DNA of 36,547 bases, taken from contig JALUNK010000075.1 of assembly GCA_027055255.1 (NCBI GenBank), positions 1 to 36,547 on the forward strand, given 5' to 3'. A program made the translations under genes and the position numbers. The notes under the pieces are model-generated. The model saw nothing but the letters and a program-made list of their open reading frames with translations, was not told the DNA's origin and ran no database searches. The stretch is from Ghiorsea sp. Its GTDB lineage: Bacteria > Pseudomonadota > Zetaproteobacteria > Mariprofundales > Mariprofundaceae. Positions 3,852-29,004 of the stretch are shown one piece after another. Within the stretch, counting starts at the first letter, position 1. Each line of letters opens with the position of its first letter.

Positions 3852-5315
3852 TTGAAATATCCTGTGTTTTTTATCACACCTTATATTTCTAATGCAAAGC
3901 CAAGCATCCTTGCCTATTCTATGCCATTAGCAGACTACAGAGAGGTTTTCAACTTGGATATTTGGCTTTATATTTCATCAGTTCTCAGCACCTTTTTTAT
4001 ATTGCTTCTCCCTTGGTTTTTACAATTATCCAAACAAAACAAAACACTGCAGAAGCAGCTGTCAGATAGTCATAATACTGCTAAAGAAAATATCACCCTT
4101 GAGCAACAACTGCGCACGGCTAACCAACAACTTGAACAACAAAAGCAACAGTTATGCCAACTACAAACTGAAAATAAAGGTTTAAGCACTTCATTGACTA
4201 AGCTACAAACAGAACACGAACTCATGCAACAGAGCAATATCGAAAAACTGGCTTTGCTTGAAGATGCGAAAACCAAACTTTCCCATGAGTTCAAAAACCT
4301 TGCTGACCAAATCTTTGAAGAAAAACAACATAAGATGACGGAATCCAGCAAAGAGACTTTAGACAACATCATCAAACCCATGCAAAAAGATATGTCTGAG
4401 TTTAAGGCGCGTATGGAGCAGGTGCATAAAGAAGATATTGAGGCTCGCTCGGCCCTTTCCCAACATTTGTCCCAGCTCAAAGAACTGAACCAACAAATGA
4501 GCCAAGAAGCTTTGAACCTCACCCAAGCCCTGAAAAGTGATAGCAAGGTTCAGGGTAATTGGGGTGAAATGATTTTAGAAAACATCCTTGAAAACAGTGG
4601 CTTGCGTGAAGGGTTAGAGTTTGACCGTGAAAAGTCATTCACCGATAATGAAGGTAAACGTCAACGCCCTGATGTGATCATTAATATGCCCGGCAAGAAA
4701 CATGTGATTGTTGATGCCAAGGTGTCACTCACCGACTACGAACGTGCTATGTCTGCTGCCAATAAGGAAGACAAAGAAGCCGCCATAAAAGCGCATGTCA
4801 AAAGCCTGCAAAAACATATCCAAGAGCTTTCAGCCAAAGATTACCAACATATTCATCAAATTAACTCGCCTGATTATGTGTTGATGTTTGTACCTATTGA
4901 AGGTGCCTATTTGATGGCGATTGAAGCCAACAGTAGCATTTTTGAAGCTGCCTTTACCCAAAACATTGCCGTGGTCACGCCTTCTACATTGTACGCCACA
5001 CTTAAACTTGTAGAGCAGCTTTGGCGCTATGAAAAGCAGAGTGGTAATGTTGCCAAGCTCACCAAACAAGCAGGCAGTTTGCATGATAAGTTTGTTACAT
5101 TTATCAAATCTTTTGAAGATATTGAAACCCACCTTGGCCGTGCACAAAAAAGCTATGATACTGCATTCGGTCAGCTAAAAGATGGGCGTGGCAACTTAGT
5201 CAACCAAGTCAAAACATTGGCTGACCTTTCAGGCAAAGCCAAAAAAGAAATTCCTGAACATTTATTGGAAGACGCAGACATTGGAGAACAACATGAGCTT
5301 AAAGACGAATCGTAA
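3852..5315 (+). CDS. rmuC: RmuC-family DNA recombination protein
   Basis: N-terminal TM, long coiled coil, then RmuC core (QGNWGEMILENILENSGLREGLEF...RQRPDVIINMPGKKHVIVDAKVSLTDYERAM). The true start may be an internal ATG such as 3921. Confidence 0.92.
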   Translation: MKYPVFFITPYISNAKPSILAYSMPLADYREVFNLDIWLYISSVLSTFFILLLPWFLQLSKQNKTLQKQLSDSHNTAKENITLEQQLRTANQQLEQQKQQLCQLQTENKGLSTSLTKLQTEHELMQQSNIEKLALLEDAKTKLSHEFKNLADQIFEEKQHKMTESSKETLDNIIKPMQKDMSEFKARMEQVHKEDIEARSALSQHLSQLKELNQQMSQEALNLTQALKSDSKVQGNWGEMILENILENSGLREGLEFDREKSFTDNEGKRQRPDVIINMPGKKHVIVDAKVSLTDYERAMSAANKEDKEAAIKAHVKSLQKHIQELSAKDYQHIHQINSPDYVLMFVPIEGAYLMAIEANSSIFEAAFTQNIAVVTPSTLYATLKLVEQLWRYEKQSGNVAKLTKQAGSLHDKFVTFIKSFEDIETHLGRAQKSYDTAFGQLKDGRGNLVNQVKTLADLSGKAKKEIPEHLLEDADIGEQHELKDES

Positions 5316-18689: not shown

Positions 18690-19669
18690 GTAACCAGCAA
18701 CCAGCAAACACACCCTTCAAACAAGCGTTGATGGATGAGGCAGAAGCACTTATCGCCACTGAACTACCTGAGCACGATTTCAAAATGATAAGCCGTGTCT
18801 TGGCTGAAATGCGCCAAGGCTTAGAAGTGTTTAAACCTTATCAAGCATGGCGAAAAGTCAGTGTGTTTGGTTCTGCCCGCACCAAGGAAAAACATCCGCA
18901 ATACCAACAGGCCAAAGCATGTGGCAAAGCATTAAAAGATGCTGGCTTTATGGTGATTACAGGTGGTGGCCCCGGCATGATGCAAGCCGCCAATGAAGGT
19001 GCAGGGCGCGATGTATCTTTTGGTATTGGTATCAACTTACCCATGGAACAACAGCTTAATCCAGTTGTACATCAATCCCCACGCAGTTTTGAATGCCAAT
19101 ACTTTTTTACACGAAAGTTCTTTTTTCTTAAAGAAAGTGATGCTGTGATTCTCACCCCTGGTGGTTTTGGTACATTTGATGAAAGCTTTGAACTATTAAC
19201 TTTATTACAAACAGGGCGCAATCCCCCTATTCCCGTGGTGATGCTTGAGGCACCGGGTGATGATTTCTGGGGACCTTTTCTCAACTCTTGGGTGCGTAGA
19301 CTGCTGGATGATGGGTTAATTAGCCCTGATGATTTGGGTTTAATTTATCACACCGATAATGCGCAGGATGCGGTCAATCATATTGCTAAGTATTATGCCA
19401 ACTATCACAGCTTTCGATACGTTGGACAAACGGTGCTGCTGCGTTTAAACAATGTTTTATCTGAACAATCACTTGAACGCTTAAATGCAGAATTTTCCAA
19501 TGTCTTACACAAGGGTAGAATTGAGCAAGTGATCAATTGGCCAGAAAACGATGACCCACAATATGCTGCATACCCACGCCTACGCATGCAGCTTAAACAT
19601 GGGCGCATGAACATTTTACCTCAACTTATACAACGTATGAATGCATTATATCAGCAAGAACATCAATAA
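18686..19669 (+). CDS. LOG-family Rossmann-fold nucleotide-binding protein
   Basis: VSVFGSARTKEKHPQYQQAKACGKALKDAGFMVITGGGPGMMQAANEGA...LTPGGFGTFDESFELLTLLQTG; PGGxGTxxE motif. ATGA overlap with the upstream gene. Confidence 0.92.
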   Translation: MSNQQPANTPFKQALMDEAEALIATELPEHDFKMISRVLAEMRQGLEVFKPYQAWRKVSVFGSARTKEKHPQYQQAKACGKALKDAGFMVITGGGPGMMQAANEGAGRDVSFGIGINLPMEQQLNPVVHQSPRSFECQYFFTRKFFFLKESDAVILTPGGFGTFDESFELLTLLQTGRNPPIPVVMLEAPGDDFWGPFLNSWVRRLLDDGLISPDDLGLIYHTDNAQDAVNHIAKYYANYHSFRYVGQTVLLRLNNVLSEQSLERLNAEFSNVLHKGRIEQVINWPENDDPQYAAYPRLRMQLKHGRMNILPQLIQRMNALYQQEHQ

Positions 19670-20574
19670 TTTGGTAGTGTCAACACGGCTTCAGCTTGTT
19701 CTAAAACAAAACTTTTAAACGCTTCAGGAATAGCAGCAAAACGTTTGCCTTCACGGTACACAATATGCCATTGTCGTTTGATGGGGAAATCTTCAACTTC
19801 CAGCACAACCAGTCGCTTGAGTGCCAATTCCATTTCAATCGTATGCAAGGATACAATACCCAAACCAAGTTCAGCCATCACAGCCTGTTTAATCGCTTCT
19901 GACCGATTCATTTCCATACCTGCAATGAGTTCTAATCCATGCTGTTCAAAAAAACGTTCAGTTGCCATACGCGTACCTGATGCAGCTTCGCGCACAATAA
20001 AAGGTTCATCCGCTAAATCGGATAATAAAATGGGTTGCTGGTGCACCAAAGGATGTGAAGGTGATGCAATCACCACCAAGGGGTTATCCATAAAAGGAAT
20101 ACCTTTCAAGTGATGCCCCGATGGTGGTTTGCCCATAATCGCCATATCGGTGTGGTTATGCTCCACTGCATCCACCAAACCAGAACGGTTGGTTACATCC
20201 AAAATAATTTCAGCTTTAGGGAATTTATGCTTAAAAGCTGCAATCAATTGTGGGGCAAAATAGTTAGCTGTGGATGCCATGGTCAGATGCAAACGCCCAC
20301 GCTCCACACCTTTGAGTTCATCCAACATCAATTTGGCTTCGTTCATTTGGTGTGCGATGGATTCCGCATACGTCAATAGTTCTCGCCCTGCTTCGGTCAA
20401 TGCAATTTGTTTACCCACCCTTTCAAACAAGGGCATACCCACATATTCTTCAAGCTGCTTAATTTGCATAGATACTGCCGGTTGGGTTAAGAATAATGAT
20501 TTGGCAGCAATGGTGTAACTTTGATATTCTGCCACGGTTGAAAATATCTTTAATTGTTTAAATGTAAATGCCAT
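19663..20574 (-). CDS. cbbR: LysR-type regulator CbbR
   Basis: MAFTFKQLKIFSTVAEYQSYTIAAKSLFLTQPAVSMQIKQLEEYVGMPLFER; divergent from cbbM. ATG 20574 preferred over the long ORF start. Confidence 0.92.
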   Translation of the reverse strand: MAFTFKQLKIFSTVAEYQSYTIAAKSLFLTQPAVSMQIKQLEEYVGMPLFERVGKQIALTEAGRELLTYAESIAHQMNEAKLMLDELKGVERGRLHLTMASTANYFAPQLIAAFKHKFPKAEIILDVTNRSGLVDAVEHNHTDMAIMGKPPSGHHLKGIPFMDNPLVVIASPSHPLVHQQPILLSDLADEPFIVREAASGTRMATERFFEQHGLELIAGMEMNRSEAIKQAVMAELGLGIVSLHTIEMELALKRLVVLEVEDFPIKRQWHIVYREGKRFAAIPEAFKSFVLEQAEAVLTLPNY

Positions 20575-20584
20575 GGGCACATGG

Positions 20585-20600
20585 TATAAGAAAAACTTAT
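20585..20600. promoter_or_regulatory. Putative CbbR-binding site (TNA-N7-TNA dyad) in the cbbR-cbbM intergenic region
   Basis: ATAAG-AAAAA-CTTAT perfect inverted repeat (20586-20600) containing TAA-GAAAAAC-TTA. Confidence 0.6.
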
Positions 20601-20621
20601 GCAAGTCATCATCAGCTTTGA

Positions 20622-20650
20622 TTGTACATGATACTTGCGCCGTGTACAAT
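20622..20650 (+). promoter_or_regulatory. Putative sigma70-type cbbM promoter, TTGTAC-N17-TACAAT, in an inverted repeat
   Basis: -35 TTGTAC 20622-20627, 17-nt spacer, -10 TACAAT 20645-20650; ATTGTACA (20621-20628) and TGTACAAT (20643-20650) are inverted repeats. Confidence 0.6.
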
Positions 20651-20703: not shown

Positions 20704-22107
20704 ATGGATCAATCGAATCGTTACGCGGATTTAAGTCTTAAAGAAGAAGACTTGATTGCTGGTGGTAAACACTTTCTAACAGCATACAAATTAAAAACAG
20801 CACCAGGCTATGGCTTTCTAGAAGTTGCGGCGCATATCGCGGCCGAATCTTCTACAGGCACCAATGTTGAAGTATCAACAACTGATGACTTTACTCGCGG
20901 CGTTGACTGCTTGGTATATGAAATTGATGAAACTGCATTTGAAGATGGCTTCGGTCTTTTCAAAGCTGCATACCCAATCGAACTTTTCGACATCAACATC
21001 ACTGATGGTAACTACATGTTATCACAAATGTGGTCTTTAATTCTTGGTAACAACCAAGGCATGGGTGACCACGTTGGTCTTCGTTTGTTGGACTTCATGG
21101 TTCCTCAAGCTATGTTAGAAAAATTTGATGGTCCTAACGTTGGTATTTCTGATCTATGGAAAATCTTGGGTCGTCCTGAAGTCGATGGTGGTTATATCTC
21201 TGGTACAATCATCAAGCCTAAATTGGGTCTTCGTCCTGAGCCGTTTGCAAAAGCTGCATACCAATTCTGGTTGGGTGGCGATTTCATTAAAAATGATGAG
21301 CCTCAAGGCAACCAAACGTTCTGCCCAATGAAAGAAGTGATTCCTAAAGTTGTTGAATCTATGGACAGAGCACAACAAGAAACTGGCGAAGCCAAACTTT
21401 TCTCTGCAAACGTCACCGCTGATTGCTACAAAGAAATGATTGCTCGTGGTAACTACATTCTTGACGAATTCGACAAAATTGGTGCACGTGACCATGTTGC
21501 ATTCTTAGTGGATGGTTTCGTAGCAGGTCCCCATGGCGTAACCACTTGTCGTCGCGAATTCCCAGATGTGTTCTTGCATTATCACCGTGCAGGTCATGGC
21601 GCTGTAACTTCATACAAAACACCAATGGGTATGGATCCATTAGTATTCATGAAGTTCGCACGTATGATTGGTGCTTCTGGTATCCACACTGGAACCATGG
21701 GTTATGGTAAAATGGAAGGTCATGGCGGCGAAACAGTTCTTGCATATATGCTTGAGCGTGACGAGTGCATGGGTCATTACTTCAACCAAAAATGGTATGG
21801 CATGAAACCAACAGTCGCAATTATCTCTGGTGGTATGAATGCTCTACGTCTTCCAGGTTTCTTTGAAAACTTGGGTCATGGTAACGTGATTAACACTTGT
21901 GGTGGTGGTGCTTATGGTCACATCGATAGCCCAGCTGCTGGTGCAAAATCTTTGAGCCAAGCATACGACTGCTGGAAATCTGGTACTGATCCCATTGAAT
22001 ACGCGAAAACTCATAACGAGTTTGCACGCGCATTTGATTCATTCCCAGGCGATGCTGACAAAGTATACGGCGATGACTGGCGTGAAAAAATCGGTTCACA
22101 CAAGTAA
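20704..22107 (+). CDS. cbbM: Ribulose-1,5-bisphosphate carboxylase, form II
   Basis: [32 protein letters not shown]-type N-terminus (here [26 protein letters not shown]), [43 protein letters not shown] active-site Lys loop, [14 protein letters not shown] loop 6. SD GGAGG before ATG 20704. Confidence 0.98.
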
Positions 22108-22137
22108 ACCGAGACTTTCTAAGTCAAACTTTAAGAA

Positions 22138-22165
22138 GGCATCCACGCAAGTGGGTGCCTTTTTT
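22138..22165 (+). terminator. Rho-independent terminator after cbbM
   Basis: GGCATCCAC-GCAA-GTGGGTGCC stem (one G-U) followed by TTTTTT. Confidence 0.9.
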
Positions 22166-22187: not shown

Positions 22188-22937
22188 TTAAATACTTTTG
22201 AATAGGTTAAGATGAATAGCTTCAGCTTGTTCAAATTGTGCTTCTGCCACTTCCTTATTCGGCAAAAGCCAGTTGATGCTTGGTAGGTGATGTTTGGTTA
22301 AATAATCATTTGCCCTTGAAAAATAATGCTGCCCAAAAAAACCACGGTGGGCTGATAATGGTGATGGATGTAGTCCCTCAATCACCAAGTGTTTATCCCT
22401 ATCAATAAACGTACCCTTCTTTTGCGCATACGCGCCCCACAAAATAAACACCACATGTTCTTTCTCATCATTAATGCGGGCAATCACTTGGTCTGTAAAT
22501 GTTTCCCAGCCTTTCTTCTGGTGTGATGCTGCTTGGCTTTGCTCTACAGTGAGCACACTGTTCAAAAGCAATACGCCTTGTTTCGCCCAACTCACCAAAC
22601 AACCATGGTTTGGTATCGCTAAAGCCAAATCTTGATGCAGTTCTTTGTAGATGTTTTTAAGGGATGGGGGCGTGCGCACATTCGGTGCAACGGAGAAACA
22701 TAAGCCATGCGCTTGCCCCTCACCGTGATAAGGATCTTGCCCGAGAATGACGACTTTCACCTGCTCAAATGGTGTTAAATTGAGTGCAGCAAAATATTGA
22801 TGCGGTTTAGGGTAAATCGTTTTACCCAATGCAAGTTCTGTTTTCAGAAAGGTGCGCAAGTCCTGCATATAAGTTTTATTAAACTCAGCTTGCAAACGCT
22901 GCTTCCAAGAATCTTCCAACTTCACCTGTTTTTCCAT
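22188..22937 (-). CDS. ung: Uracil-DNA glycosylase (family 1)
   Basis: [56 protein letters not shown]. Confidence 0.97.
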
Positions 22938-22976
22938 AAGAAGAATAGAAGCAGTTTATGGATGGTAAGTCTACTC

Positions 22977-22991
22977 ATCAATAAAATTGAT
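22977..22991. promoter_or_regulatory. Putative second CbbR-type dyad upstream of cbbQ
   Basis: ATCAAT-AAA-ATTGAT perfect 15-bp palindrome containing TCA-ATAAAAT-TGA (TNA-N7-TNA); 52 bp upstream of TATAAT at 23036. Confidence 0.5.
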
Positions 22992-23092
22992 ATAATCCAT
23001 AAGAATTATAAGCATGTATTTTTATTTCTATACCGTATAATTGCGCTTCAATATCGGTTTAAAACATGTTTTCTTAAGGTACGAGGTTATTT

Positions 23093-23896
23093 ATGAGCAA
23101 CGAAGCGCAATACACAATTAAAGAAAAACCATTCTACGAAGCACAAGGTGATGAAGTTGAGCTTTATGAAGCAGCTTATGCAGCGCGCCTGCCTGTCATG
23201 GTCAAAGGGCCTACAGGCTGCGGTAAATCTCGCTTTATTGAATACATGGCTTGGAAACTTGGCAAACCCTTAATCACCGTGGCTTGTAACGAAGACATGA
23301 CCGCATCCGATTTGGTAGGTCGCTACCTGTTGGATGCCAACGGCACCCGCTGGTTGGATGGCCCATTAACTGTGGCTGCACGCATTGGAGCCATTTGTTA
23401 TTTGGATGAAATCGTAGAAGCGCGTCAAGATACAACCGTTGTGATTCACCCGTTGACTGACCATAGACGCACCTTGCCTTTGGATAAAAAAGGCGAATTG
23501 CTTGAAGCCCATGAAGATTTCCAATTGGTGATTTCTTATAACCCAGGTTATCAATCCTTGATGAAAGATTTGAAGCAATCAACCAAACAGCGTTTTACGG
23601 GTTTTGAATTTGATTACCCATCTGAAGCGACTGAAACATCGATTGTTGAAAAAGAAACGGGCATCGATCATGAACTAGCCACCAAGTTGGTCAAAATTGG
23701 TACGGCAGCGCGTAACCTTAAAGGTCATGGCTTGGACGAAGGTATTTCAACACGTTTGCTAACGTATGCTGCAACATTGATTAAAGGTGGTATTGAGCCC
23801 AAAGCCGCTTGCCGCATGGCATTGGTTCGCCCAATCACTGATGATGCTGATATTCGTGTTACTTTAGATCACGCTATTGACACAATTTTTGCCTAA
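23093..23896 (+). CDS. cbbQ: RuBisCO activase AAA+ subunit CbbQ
   Basis: MoxR-type AAA+: VMVKGPTGCGKSRFIEYMAWKLGKPLITVACNEDMTASDLVGRYLL...AICYLDEIVEAR; followed by cbbO. Confidence 0.95.
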   Translation: MSNEAQYTIKEKPFYEAQGDEVELYEAAYAARLPVMVKGPTGCGKSRFIEYMAWKLGKPLITVACNEDMTASDLVGRYLLDANGTRWLDGPLTVAARIGAICYLDEIVEARQDTTVVIHPLTDHRRTLPLDKKGELLEAHEDFQLVISYNPGYQSLMKDLKQSTKQRFTGFEFDYPSEATETSIVEKETGIDHELATKLVKIGTAARNLKGHGLDEGISTRLLTYAATLIKGGIEPKAACRMALVRPITDDADIRVTLDHAIDTIFA

Positions 23897-23905
23897 GTCT
23901 CCAAT

Positions 23906-26182
23906 ATGACTGAAGTTGTAGAACTACAAGAACGCTCTGCTGAAGACTTGGCTTATTGGGAAGCATTAAACTGTCGTTTCCCCGATGCTGATAGAGTTTT
24001 TGATGAGTGTATCAAAGAAGCCAAAGCATTATTAACACCTGCGGGTGTGGATGCTTATATCGAAAACGCACGTTTCATTGGAAAAATGGGTCGAGGTGTT
24101 GAACCCTTACTTATTTATTTGGAAGAAACACCTACCGTGGCATCCATTGTCGGTGAAGAAATTTTACCTGAAATTAAAGAGTTTTGCCTGTTTTTATCGA
24201 CCAATACGAACTTCAAAGCCATTGTTCCTTTCTTGCAAACCTTAGGCGCTGTAAGCAAACGCTTGCATAGCTATGAGCAGCTGCATCATTATTTTGATAT
24301 ACTCAAAGATATGTTGGATAAAACAACCGCATCGGTACATGGGCACCATAAAACTTTCCCAAGCCCGGGTTTACCCTTATTGCTTGAGCAGTCGCCGCGT
24401 TTACTTCGTGCTTTAAGTCTCGAAGGTTATAAGAACTGGATTGATTATGGCGTGAAGTATTATAACAAACACCCTGAACGCCAAAAAGATTATTTTAGCC
24501 TGCAATCACCCGATGCTGTTGCTGTGATGCAACGCGAGCGTCATGGTACATTGATGGTCGATCATGAGCGTCAACTTGATTTGTATTTGCGCGGATTATG
24601 GGAAGATACTGATTACTTAGTACCTTATTCATCTGCTTTTGATGAGTTACGCAAACCCATGCCCTACTTTGATAAATTAGGCATTCGTTTACCTGATGTT
24701 TACGATGATAAAGATGGAGTATCTGGCATTGACCGTTATCGCGCCACGCTAGCACATATGGCAGCGCACCGCCGCTGGAGTAGCCAGATGGTTGTCGATA
24801 ACTGGAGCCCGTTTCAACGGGTTGCCGTGGAAACATTTGAAGACTCTCGTGTTGAGTATTTAGCCATCAAAGAATTCCCTGGTCTGCGCAAGCTTTTCCT
24901 TGCTTTGCATCCTGTGCCTAAAGAAGAAGACTTAGAGATTGAGGGCGAATCTATGGTTCGCCTTAGGCTCGCTTTGTTCTCTCGTGCTGTACTCGACCCT
25001 GAATTTGAAGTCAAACATGATGATATCAGAGAATCAGTCAAACGCTTCTTTATTGAAATGGAAAAAGATGGTGTATCCAGCAGCGAAAACATGGCAAGCC
25101 TTGCCTTAAGTTTCACAGCGCGCACCCGCCGCCAGACTGATTTATCACCCAAAATATACTTTGATAATACCGAAGTGGACTACCGCGATGACAACCGTCA
25201 TTTGTGGATTTACATTGAACAAGGTGATGATGAAGATACGCAGTTTGAGCATCTTGAAGAACAAAAGAAACAAGATGAAGTCAGCTCACTTCCTCCCCGC
25301 CATTATCATGAGTGGGACTATAATTCACAACACTACCGTCCTGATTGGGTGAGTGTGTATGAGGCTATTCACCCCAGTGGTGATGCCAATGTGATTGATA
25401 AGATTCTTGAAAAACATGGCGCACTCGCCAAACGTCTTAAAGCCATCCTTGATGCTTTGAAACCACAACAGAAAGTGCGCATTCGCTACCAAGAAGAAGG
25501 TTCTGAACTTGACTTGGATGTGGCCATCCGCTCATTGATTGACTTAAAAAGTGGTTCGCAACCTGATATGCGTATCAATATGAGCCATAAAAATGATGGT
25601 AGGGATATTGCGGTAATGTTGGTTTTGGATTTATCACAATCACTGAATGAAAAAGCAATGGGAAGCCAACAAACCATTCTTGAACTTTCACAAGAAGCAA
25701 TCACACTGCTTGCTTGGACTATTGAGCAATTGGGCGATAAATTTGCCATTGGTGGGTTTAACTCCAATACACGCCATGATGTTAGATATTCGCACATCAA
25801 AGGTTTTGGTGAACATTTTGATACTGAAGTGAAGCGCAGATTAGCGGCTATGGAAGCCAAATATTCAACGCGTATGGGTGCTGCCATGCGTCATGCTGGT
25901 CACTACTTGGAAGGGCAGAAAGCAGATAAGAAATTGATGCTAGTGCTGACAGATGGTGAGCCTGCAGATATTGATGTGGATGATGATCAACTTTTGATTC
26001 AGGATACACATAAAGCGGTAAAAGAGTTGCAGCAGCAAGGTATTTATAGCTATTGCATTAACTTAGACCCTAAAGCCGATGAGTATGTAAAAGATATTTT
26101 TGGTAGGCATTACACTGTGATTGATAATGTGGATAAACTGCCTGAAAAATTGCCTCAAATTTTTATGTCACTGACCAAATAA
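23906..26182 (+). CDS. cbbO: RuBisCO activase vWA subunit CbbO
   Basis: Large protein with C-terminal VWA domain, MIDAS DLSQS (VMLVLDLSQSLNEKAMG...LMLVLTDGEPADIDV); directly after cbbQ. Confidence 0.95.
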   Translation: MTEVVELQERSAEDLAYWEALNCRFPDADRVFDECIKEAKALLTPAGVDAYIENARFIGKMGRGVEPLLIYLEETPTVASIVGEEILPEIKEFCLFLSTNTNFKAIVPFLQTLGAVSKRLHSYEQLHHYFDILKDMLDKTTASVHGHHKTFPSPGLPLLLEQSPRLLRALSLEGYKNWIDYGVKYYNKHPERQKDYFSLQSPDAVAVMQRERHGTLMVDHERQLDLYLRGLWEDTDYLVPYSSAFDELRKPMPYFDKLGIRLPDVYDDKDGVSGIDRYRATLAHMAAHRRWSSQMVVDNWSPFQRVAVETFEDSRVEYLAIKEFPGLRKLFLALHPVPKEEDLEIEGESMVRLRLALFSRAVLDPEFEVKHDDIRESVKRFFIEMEKDGVSSSENMASLALSFTARTRRQTDLSPKIYFDNTEVDYRDDNRHLWIYIEQGDDEDTQFEHLEEQKKQDEVSSLPPRHYHEWDYNSQHYRPDWVSVYEAIHPSGDANVIDKILEKHGALAKRLKAILDALKPQQKVRIRYQEEGSELDLDVAIRSLIDLKSGSQPDMRINMSHKNDGRDIAVMLVLDLSQSLNEKAMGSQQTILELSQEAITLLAWTIEQLGDKFAIGGFNSNTRHDVRYSHIKGFGEHFDTEVKRRLAAMEAKYSTRMGAAMRHAGHYLEGQKADKKLMLVLTDGEPADIDVDDDQLLIQDTHKAVKELQQQGIYSYCINLDPKADEYVKDIFGRHYTVIDNVDKLPEKLPQIFMSLTK

Positions 26183-28004: not shown

Positions 28005-28898
28005 TTACATCAATTGAGAACGTAAGTATGGGACAAGAAAATCAACCAGTTTTTTTGCTAAAGGTGAAGCATGGCTGGGTTGTAATAAGCTCATGGGTCG
28101 TGACAAAGTGGGTTTAAATGGGCGAGTGCTCAAAATAGATTCACCCGTTGGTAAACAAAATTGTGATACCACACTGATGCCTAAACCTTGGCGGACAGAT
28201 TCAAGTACGGCAGAGACACCGCCCATACATAATTGAATATTGGGCTGGTTCCCTAAGCTTTTTATCCATGCCTGTTCGAGTACATCGCGTGTGCCTGAGC
28301 CTTTTTCTCGCCAAATCATGGGGTAGTCTTGAAGTTGATGTAAGCTAATGGATGTGTATTTGCTTAGCGGGTGTGATTTTGGCATCACTGCAACCATTGT
28401 ATCTTCACCAAGCGGTTGAATCTCGCAACATTCGGGCGTGCTTGTAGGCAAGGGGCTTTCGATGAAACCCAAATCATGATGCTGCATACGGTTAAAAACC
28501 TCTTGGCTATTTCCACTATCCACAAACACTTCAATATTGGGGTAACGCTGACGAAAAGCAATCAGTGCACTGGGTAAAAGCGAGCCTGCAATCGTTTGGC
28601 TGGCTGAAAGATAGATGCGCCCAGCTTGTAAGCCTCTAAGCTCATCTGCAAAGGCATCAAGCGCTTGCATGGATTGCTGAACCTTTAAAGCATATTTGTA
28701 AAAGGATTCACCCGCCCCCGTAAGTTGCACGCCGCGCCCATGCCGCTGATAAAGTTGCAAACCTAGCCTGTCTTGTAGAAGCTTTAATTGATTGGAAATC
28801 GCAGGCTGCGTCAAAGACCGAGCTTGGGCAGCAGCGCTTACACTGCCCGTTTGCACTAAAGCAACAAAGCTTAATAAATGTTCGGGGTGTATATTCAT
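28005..28898 (-). CDS. LysR-type transcriptional regulator
   Basis: MNIHPEHLLSFVALVQTGSVSAAAQARSLTQPAISNQLKLLQDRLGLQLYQRHGRGVQLTGAGE; divergent from a YeiH-type exporter. Confidence 0.93.
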   Translation of the reverse strand: MNIHPEHLLSFVALVQTGSVSAAAQARSLTQPAISNQLKLLQDRLGLQLYQRHGRGVQLTGAGESFYKYALKVQQSMQALDAFADELRGLQAGRIYLSASQTIAGSLLPSALIAFRQRYPNIEVFVDSGNSQEVFNRMQHHDLGFIESPLPTSTPECCEIQPLGEDTMVAVMPKSHPLSKYTSISLHQLQDYPMIWREKGSGTRDVLEQAWIKSLGNQPNIQLCMGGVSAVLESVRQGLGISVVSQFCLPTGESILSTRPFKPTLSRPMSLLQPSHASPLAKKLVDFLVPYLRSQLM

Positions 28899-28908
28899 GC
28901 GCCCATAT

Positions 28909-28960
28909 TATCATTATATATGATATGTACTATCATTAAATATCATTATTCATGATGATA
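28909..28960. promoter_or_regulatory. Phased array of TATCAT/ATGATA elements, putative LysR operator
   Basis: TATCAT-TATAT-ATGATA (28909-28925, includes T-N11-A), TATCAT at 28931 and 28941, ATGATA at 28955. Confidence 0.6.
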
Positions 28961-29004
28961 TAAAGCTATAAAGTTCCCGCCCATGAGATATATGGAGCAC
29001 ACAC

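Follow-up and report, generated by a model that had tools for sequence, protein, structure and literature searches.

A predicted CbbR-type promoter for the Rubisco activase genes cbbQO in Ghiorsea and other Mariprofundaceae

The genes for the Rubisco activase subunit CbbQ and its partner CbbO in Ghiorsea sp. are very probably under the same switch, the LysR-type regulator CbbR, as Rubisco itself. From sequence comparison, we are confident in reading positions 22977-23041 as a predicted LysR-type, CbbR-dependent promoter of cbbQO. Positions are those of the window, the whole stretch of 36,547 nucleotides that was analysed; it corresponds to contig C75 in a draft genome of 2.0 Mb (completeness 85%, contamination 4.8%), and the relatives of its cbbQ put it in the Mariprofundaceae. 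A first-pass annotation of this DNA had proposed that cbbQO possesses its own CbbR-type promoter resembling that of cbbM. The evidence then available, one dyad and a spacing, was insufficient by itself, and the most conserved part of the element (22998-23016) was missed. The proposal is now supported by held-out phylogenetic footprinting, a shared +59 geometry, cross-recognition between the cbbM and cbbQ motifs, and persistence of the element far from cbbM.

The cbb locus and its two promoter regions

The presumed binder is the product of cbbR, a LysR-type regulator gene (19663-20574, minus strand) that is divergent from cbbM, the gene for form II Rubisco (20704-22107, plus strand). Upstream of cbbM, on the plus strand, lie a recognition dyad at 20586-20600 (ATAAGAAAAACTTAT; ATAAG-N5-CTTAT, containing TAA-N7-TTA), a second, activation-type dyad ATCA-N7-TGAT at 20608-20622, 22 bp after the first, and a -10 hexamer TACAAT at 20645-20650, at +59 from the dyad start. 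That cbbM is terminated and set apart from cbbQO, as originally claimed, is borne out by an intrinsic terminator 3′ of the gene (22136-22164, plus strand), a folded stem-loop of about -21.8 kcal/mol followed by T6, and by the intervening ung (uracil-DNA glycosylase; 22188-22937, minus strand), convergent with cbbM and divergent from cbbQ. Beyond ung, all on the plus strand, come the predicted cbbQ recognition dyad (ATCAATAAAATTGAT, 22977-22991), read as ATCAAT-AAA-ATTGAT and containing TCA-N7-TGA; a conserved second block, CATAAGAATTATAAGCATG, at 22998-23016, a probable activation site of the form TAA-N6-TAA; and a -10 TATAAT at 23036-23041, again at +59. The -35 position, CATGTA at 23013-23018 with a 17-bp spacer, is a very poor match to TTGACA, and no sigma-70-like site was called there. 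An alternative -10, a TATAAT at 22991-22996 that overlaps the dyad, was rejected for want of conservation in relatives. The genes served would be cbbQ (23093-23896), an AAA+ protein gene with AAA_5 and CbbQ_C domains, and cbbO (23906-26182), encoding the VWA-domain partner of CbbQ, both on the plus strand and followed by an EamA-family gene on the minus strand. The same draft genome also holds a second cbbM-cbbQO copy on a 3.3-kb contig (G000:C57:1-3323; L162). Its identity to another species of the genus is 94%, against 81-86% to the window, and it may be a strain mixture or a true paralogue.

Taken alone, the cbbQ dyad is ordinary and its significance poor. The perfect palindrome with its TCA-N7-TGA core lies where it was first reported, with 6-bp arms and a 3-bp spacer, and all reported coordinates and spacings are correct; the dyad centres of cbbQ (22984) and cbbM (20593) indeed each precede the first base of their own -10 by 52 bp. 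Equally well founded is the caveat that such dyads arise by chance: perfect 6+3+6 dyads number 12 in the 36.5-kb window, when the 155-bp spacer is dinucleotide-shuffled, 9% of the resulting sequences contain one, and a symmetric ATNA-N7-TNAT is present in about 11% of shuffled spacers. The spacing is far more demanding, since 0.12% of shuffles show the same symmetric pattern with a -10 (at least 5/6 matching) at exactly +59, and 0 of 20,000 show it with a perfect TATAAT there. The suggested flanking inverted repeats fared unevenly. TTATGGAT (22956-22963) and ATCCATAA (22995-23002) are exact reverse complements, but while the outer repeat matches 8/8 in the window, only 0-6/8 positions are kept in relatives, and it was rejected as part of the element; its right arm simply runs into the beginning of the conserved second block.

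Conservation of a three-part element

The principal evidence comes from cbbQ upstream regions gathered from relatives, in which a blind motif search was run with the window left out. Across 27 form II-type cbbQ loci, from Mariprofundaceae and one relative, the search converged on a 68-bp element of three parts: a dyad of consensus AT[C/A]A-N7-T[G/T]AT, a second block, consensus CATAAGAATTATAAGCATG, whose first base lies 21-22 nt from the start of the dyad, and a hexamer resembling TATAAT. Conservation in relatives, put forward in the first-pass annotation as a check, is thereby found, with the composite at 22 of the 27 loci and absent from five relatives that carry cbbQ. The -10 stands at offset +59 in all but two of the element-bearing loci (20/22). 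With the window left out of training, a motif model gives the window site 69.8 bits, against -22.9 for the next-best position of the same upstream; with a model drawn from other genera only, the window site is still first (43.6 bits versus 9.0). The most conserved part is the second block at 22998-23016, stronger than the dyad: by itself, with the genus held out, it is the single best of about 73,000 positions. The dyad arms also co-vary, as T-C-A/T-G-A in 7 of 16 sequences and T-A-A/T-T-A in 5 of 16, a modest signal with one informative varying pair column and a score reached by shuffles in 13 of 500 cases.

These features match what is expected of LysR-type targets. The T-N11-A pattern with dyad symmetry, and its TNA-N7-TNA subset, that define LysR/CbbR sites are found at 22977-22991. 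Counted from the predicted start, the element likewise has the two-site arrangement of fixed geometry, with recognition near -65 and a second site reaching -35. A covariance model (R1), built from 16 relatives with the own genome excluded, recovers the site of the window with E=1.9e-12; with its presence at 22 of 27 cbbQ loci, the element is both enriched above chance and conserved. The sole comparable match in the genome is the second cbbQ copy on the 3.3-kb contig (E=6.8e-13). The next match of R1, at G000:C180:683-725, has an E of 0.0019, covers part of the model only and lies just upstream of an RpoN-like gene. With a cbbM-trained model, the cbbM promoter of this genome is found at E 6e-17 and the next match at 0.09. 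By the full composite, then, the regulon visible in the draft genome comprises cbbM and cbbQO alone, a definition that weaker or single-dyad sites would escape.

The cbbM promoters share with cbbQ the first dyad, the second site at +22 and mostly the +59 offset, and in many relatives the dyad-to--10 geometry of +59 is identical at cbbM and cbbQ. When a 15-bp motif derived from cbbM promoters only is applied to 22 upstreams of about 286 positions each, its top-ranking position is the cbbQ dyad in 19 of them; for the window dyad the score is moderate (8.4 bits), ranking second in the upstream and ninth in the whole window. It is the second blocks that differ, TAA-N6-TAA at cbbQ versus TCA-N7-TGA at cbbM, a difference that could give different responses. 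In two other genera, two-part sites of the cbbM type were also seen in front of transketolase (tkt-gap, following glpX), at L156 ~3870-3916 (G020:C53) and L158 2798-2866 (G017:C12); none was found in the tkt upstreams examined in the window's genus.

Regulator, proposed switch and competing readings

The product of 19663-20574 carries the Pfam domains HTH_1 and LysR_substrate, and its gene is divergent from the Rubisco gene, the combination expected of CbbR. Among NCBIfam models the product scores best against CbbR NF045990, at 275.9 bits, below the curated cutoff of 450; because that model is named for Rhodobacter-type CbbR, the miss argues only against this narrow subgroup. The closest plasmid-borne relative, a 51% identical Nitrobacter LysR gene, is divergent from cbbF-cbbP-fba and so adjoins other Calvin-cycle genes. 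At E<=1e-30 the genome holds a single CbbR homologue, the one beside cbbM.

In the mechanism that we propose, a CbbR dimer would sit on the recognition dyad 22977-22991, whose centre falls at about -64 if transcription starts some 7 nt after the -10, and a second dimer would contact the activation block 22998-23016, 22 bp or two helical turns downstream, beside the degenerate -35. In the right coinducer state, the DNA bend would relax and RNA polymerase would be recruited to TATAAT. The poor -35 (CATGTA) fits such an activator-dependent promoter. With the same regulator bound to the equally spaced composite upstream of cbbM, Rubisco and activase would be switched together despite the terminator and, in this genome, the opposing ung. 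What the analysis itself establishes is the sequence, its conservation and geometry, its uniqueness in the genome and the cross-recognition of the two motifs. The tetramer and bend belong to general knowledge of LysR-type regulators; that the binder is CbbR, that this mechanism operates here, that the effect is activation and not repression, and where transcription starts are what we infer for the present element.

The composite might instead be a LysR-type cbbQO promoter whose binder is a LysR regulator other than the CbbR beside cbbM. The cbbQ second block, being unlike that of cbbM, leaves some room for this, as does a second LysR gene in the window that uses TCA-N7-TGA dyads. This gene (28005-28898, minus strand) is divergent from a PF03601 (YeiH-like) gene, and the spacer at 28899-29004 contains TATCATTATATATGATA and further TCA-N7-TGA-like dyads; since an unrelated LysR gene also has such dyads, the half-site alone fails to identify CbbR. 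Yet dyad form and +59 geometry are the same as at cbbM, the model trained on cbbQ picks out regions in front of cbbM in outgroups, and the only CbbR homologue of the genome sits beside cbbM, all of which make a different regulator unlikely.

Two further readings can be given far less credence. Proximity invites the thought that the palindrome serves the divergent ung, or both genes, instead of cbbQ, with the ung start 39 bp to the left of the dyad on the other strand. About 16 relatives nevertheless have the element in front of cbbQ with no ung at that position, which refutes ung as sole explanation, and the -10 and orientation follow cbbQ; a palindrome belonging to ung or to both genes is very improbable. 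A chance dyad in an AT-rich spacer, for which the 12 equally perfect dyads in the window and the 9-11% of shuffled spacers containing one might speak, is refuted by genus-held-out conservation, arm covariation and fixed spacing, and its probability is negligible. A CbbR-dependent promoter of cbbQO is the reading retained below.

History and significance of the cbbQO promoter

The element is kept with cbbQ in three upstream contexts, namely cbbM with its terminator, divergent ung (six genus members) and an unrelated gene; in one genome (G023) cbbQ lies about 25 kb from cbbM and the element is retained. Staying in place across such contexts, it belongs to cbbQ and not to ung. In another genome (G007), ung is downstream of cbbO beside eamA, versus between cbbM and cbbQ in the six genus members, a change of position that is a local rearrangement around the cbb operon. 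The genome G017 is without form II cbbM and form II-type cbbQ; the element survives there at L155 4390-4856 (G017:C5), adjoining a frameshifted C-terminal cbbO fragment and eamA, and is a relic of a lost cbbQO operon.

Outside the family the arrangement is different. In a scan of 80 loci spanning several proteobacterial classes, the matches of the cbbQ-trained model in Beta- and Gammaproteobacteria lay upstream of cbbM at 15 of 15 loci, mostly in the cbbR-cbbM spacer, and no cbbM-cbbQ spacer in these two classes gave a match. In these classes cbbM and cbbQ are mostly adjacent. Their cbbR-cbbM-cbbQ-cbbO clusters (for example Gallionella and Thiobacillus MAGs; L190-L264) have a divergent cbbR and, in a subset, the site upstream of cbbM; their cbbQO are presumably co-transcribed with cbbM, unlike those of the window. 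The empty outgroup spacer suggests, and does not prove, that the second promoter was gained in the Mariprofundaceae lineage, and the best reading is that the cbbQO promoter is largely specific to this family.

The closest described parallel is Acidithiobacillus ferrooxidans, in which one LysR-type CbbR binds several separate cbb operons in EMSA, at TNA-N7-TNA / T-N11-A sites like those predicted here; there, cbbQ lies inside cbbLS operons, whereas the cbbQO unit of the window carries a site on its own, apart from cbbM (PMC2942843). A fragment with form I and form II Rubisco from an organism of a deep-sea vent carries lysR1/lysR2, cbbM, cbbQ-m and cbbO-m, and in its non-coding regions LysR sites were predicted and binding was seen by EMSA; it resembles the window in joining form II cbbM to cbbQ/cbbO and LysR regulators and differs in its two LysR genes and form I, and the parts of that paper drawn on here describe no comparative two-part cbbQ promoter (PMC5506194). 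Within the open literature searched, no paper joins Zetaproteobacteria and CbbR, and Mariprofundus with cbbM and cbbQ leads only to the A. ferrooxidans paper (PMC2942843). The switch type is well known; its cbbQO instance in Mariprofundaceae appears to be undescribed.

The composite offers a precise regulon motif for marine iron oxidisers, a group on which the open literature searched yielded no work on CbbR, and in its full form permits regulon prediction, as it also marks tkt-gap in two relatives. CbbQO removes inhibitors from Rubisco, and its dosage relative to Rubisco therefore matters. A conserved, separate CbbR-type promoter would show how Rubisco and CbbQO stay together when the operon breaks. 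The chances seem evenly balanced that the family gained, between cbbM and cbbQ, a second promoter that depends on CbbR and has a distinct type of activation site, which freed the activase genes to move while remaining in the regulon, possibly with a response threshold unlike that of cbbM. If so, cbbQO could be separated from cbbM by ung, or by distances of 25 kb or more, without loss of regulon membership.
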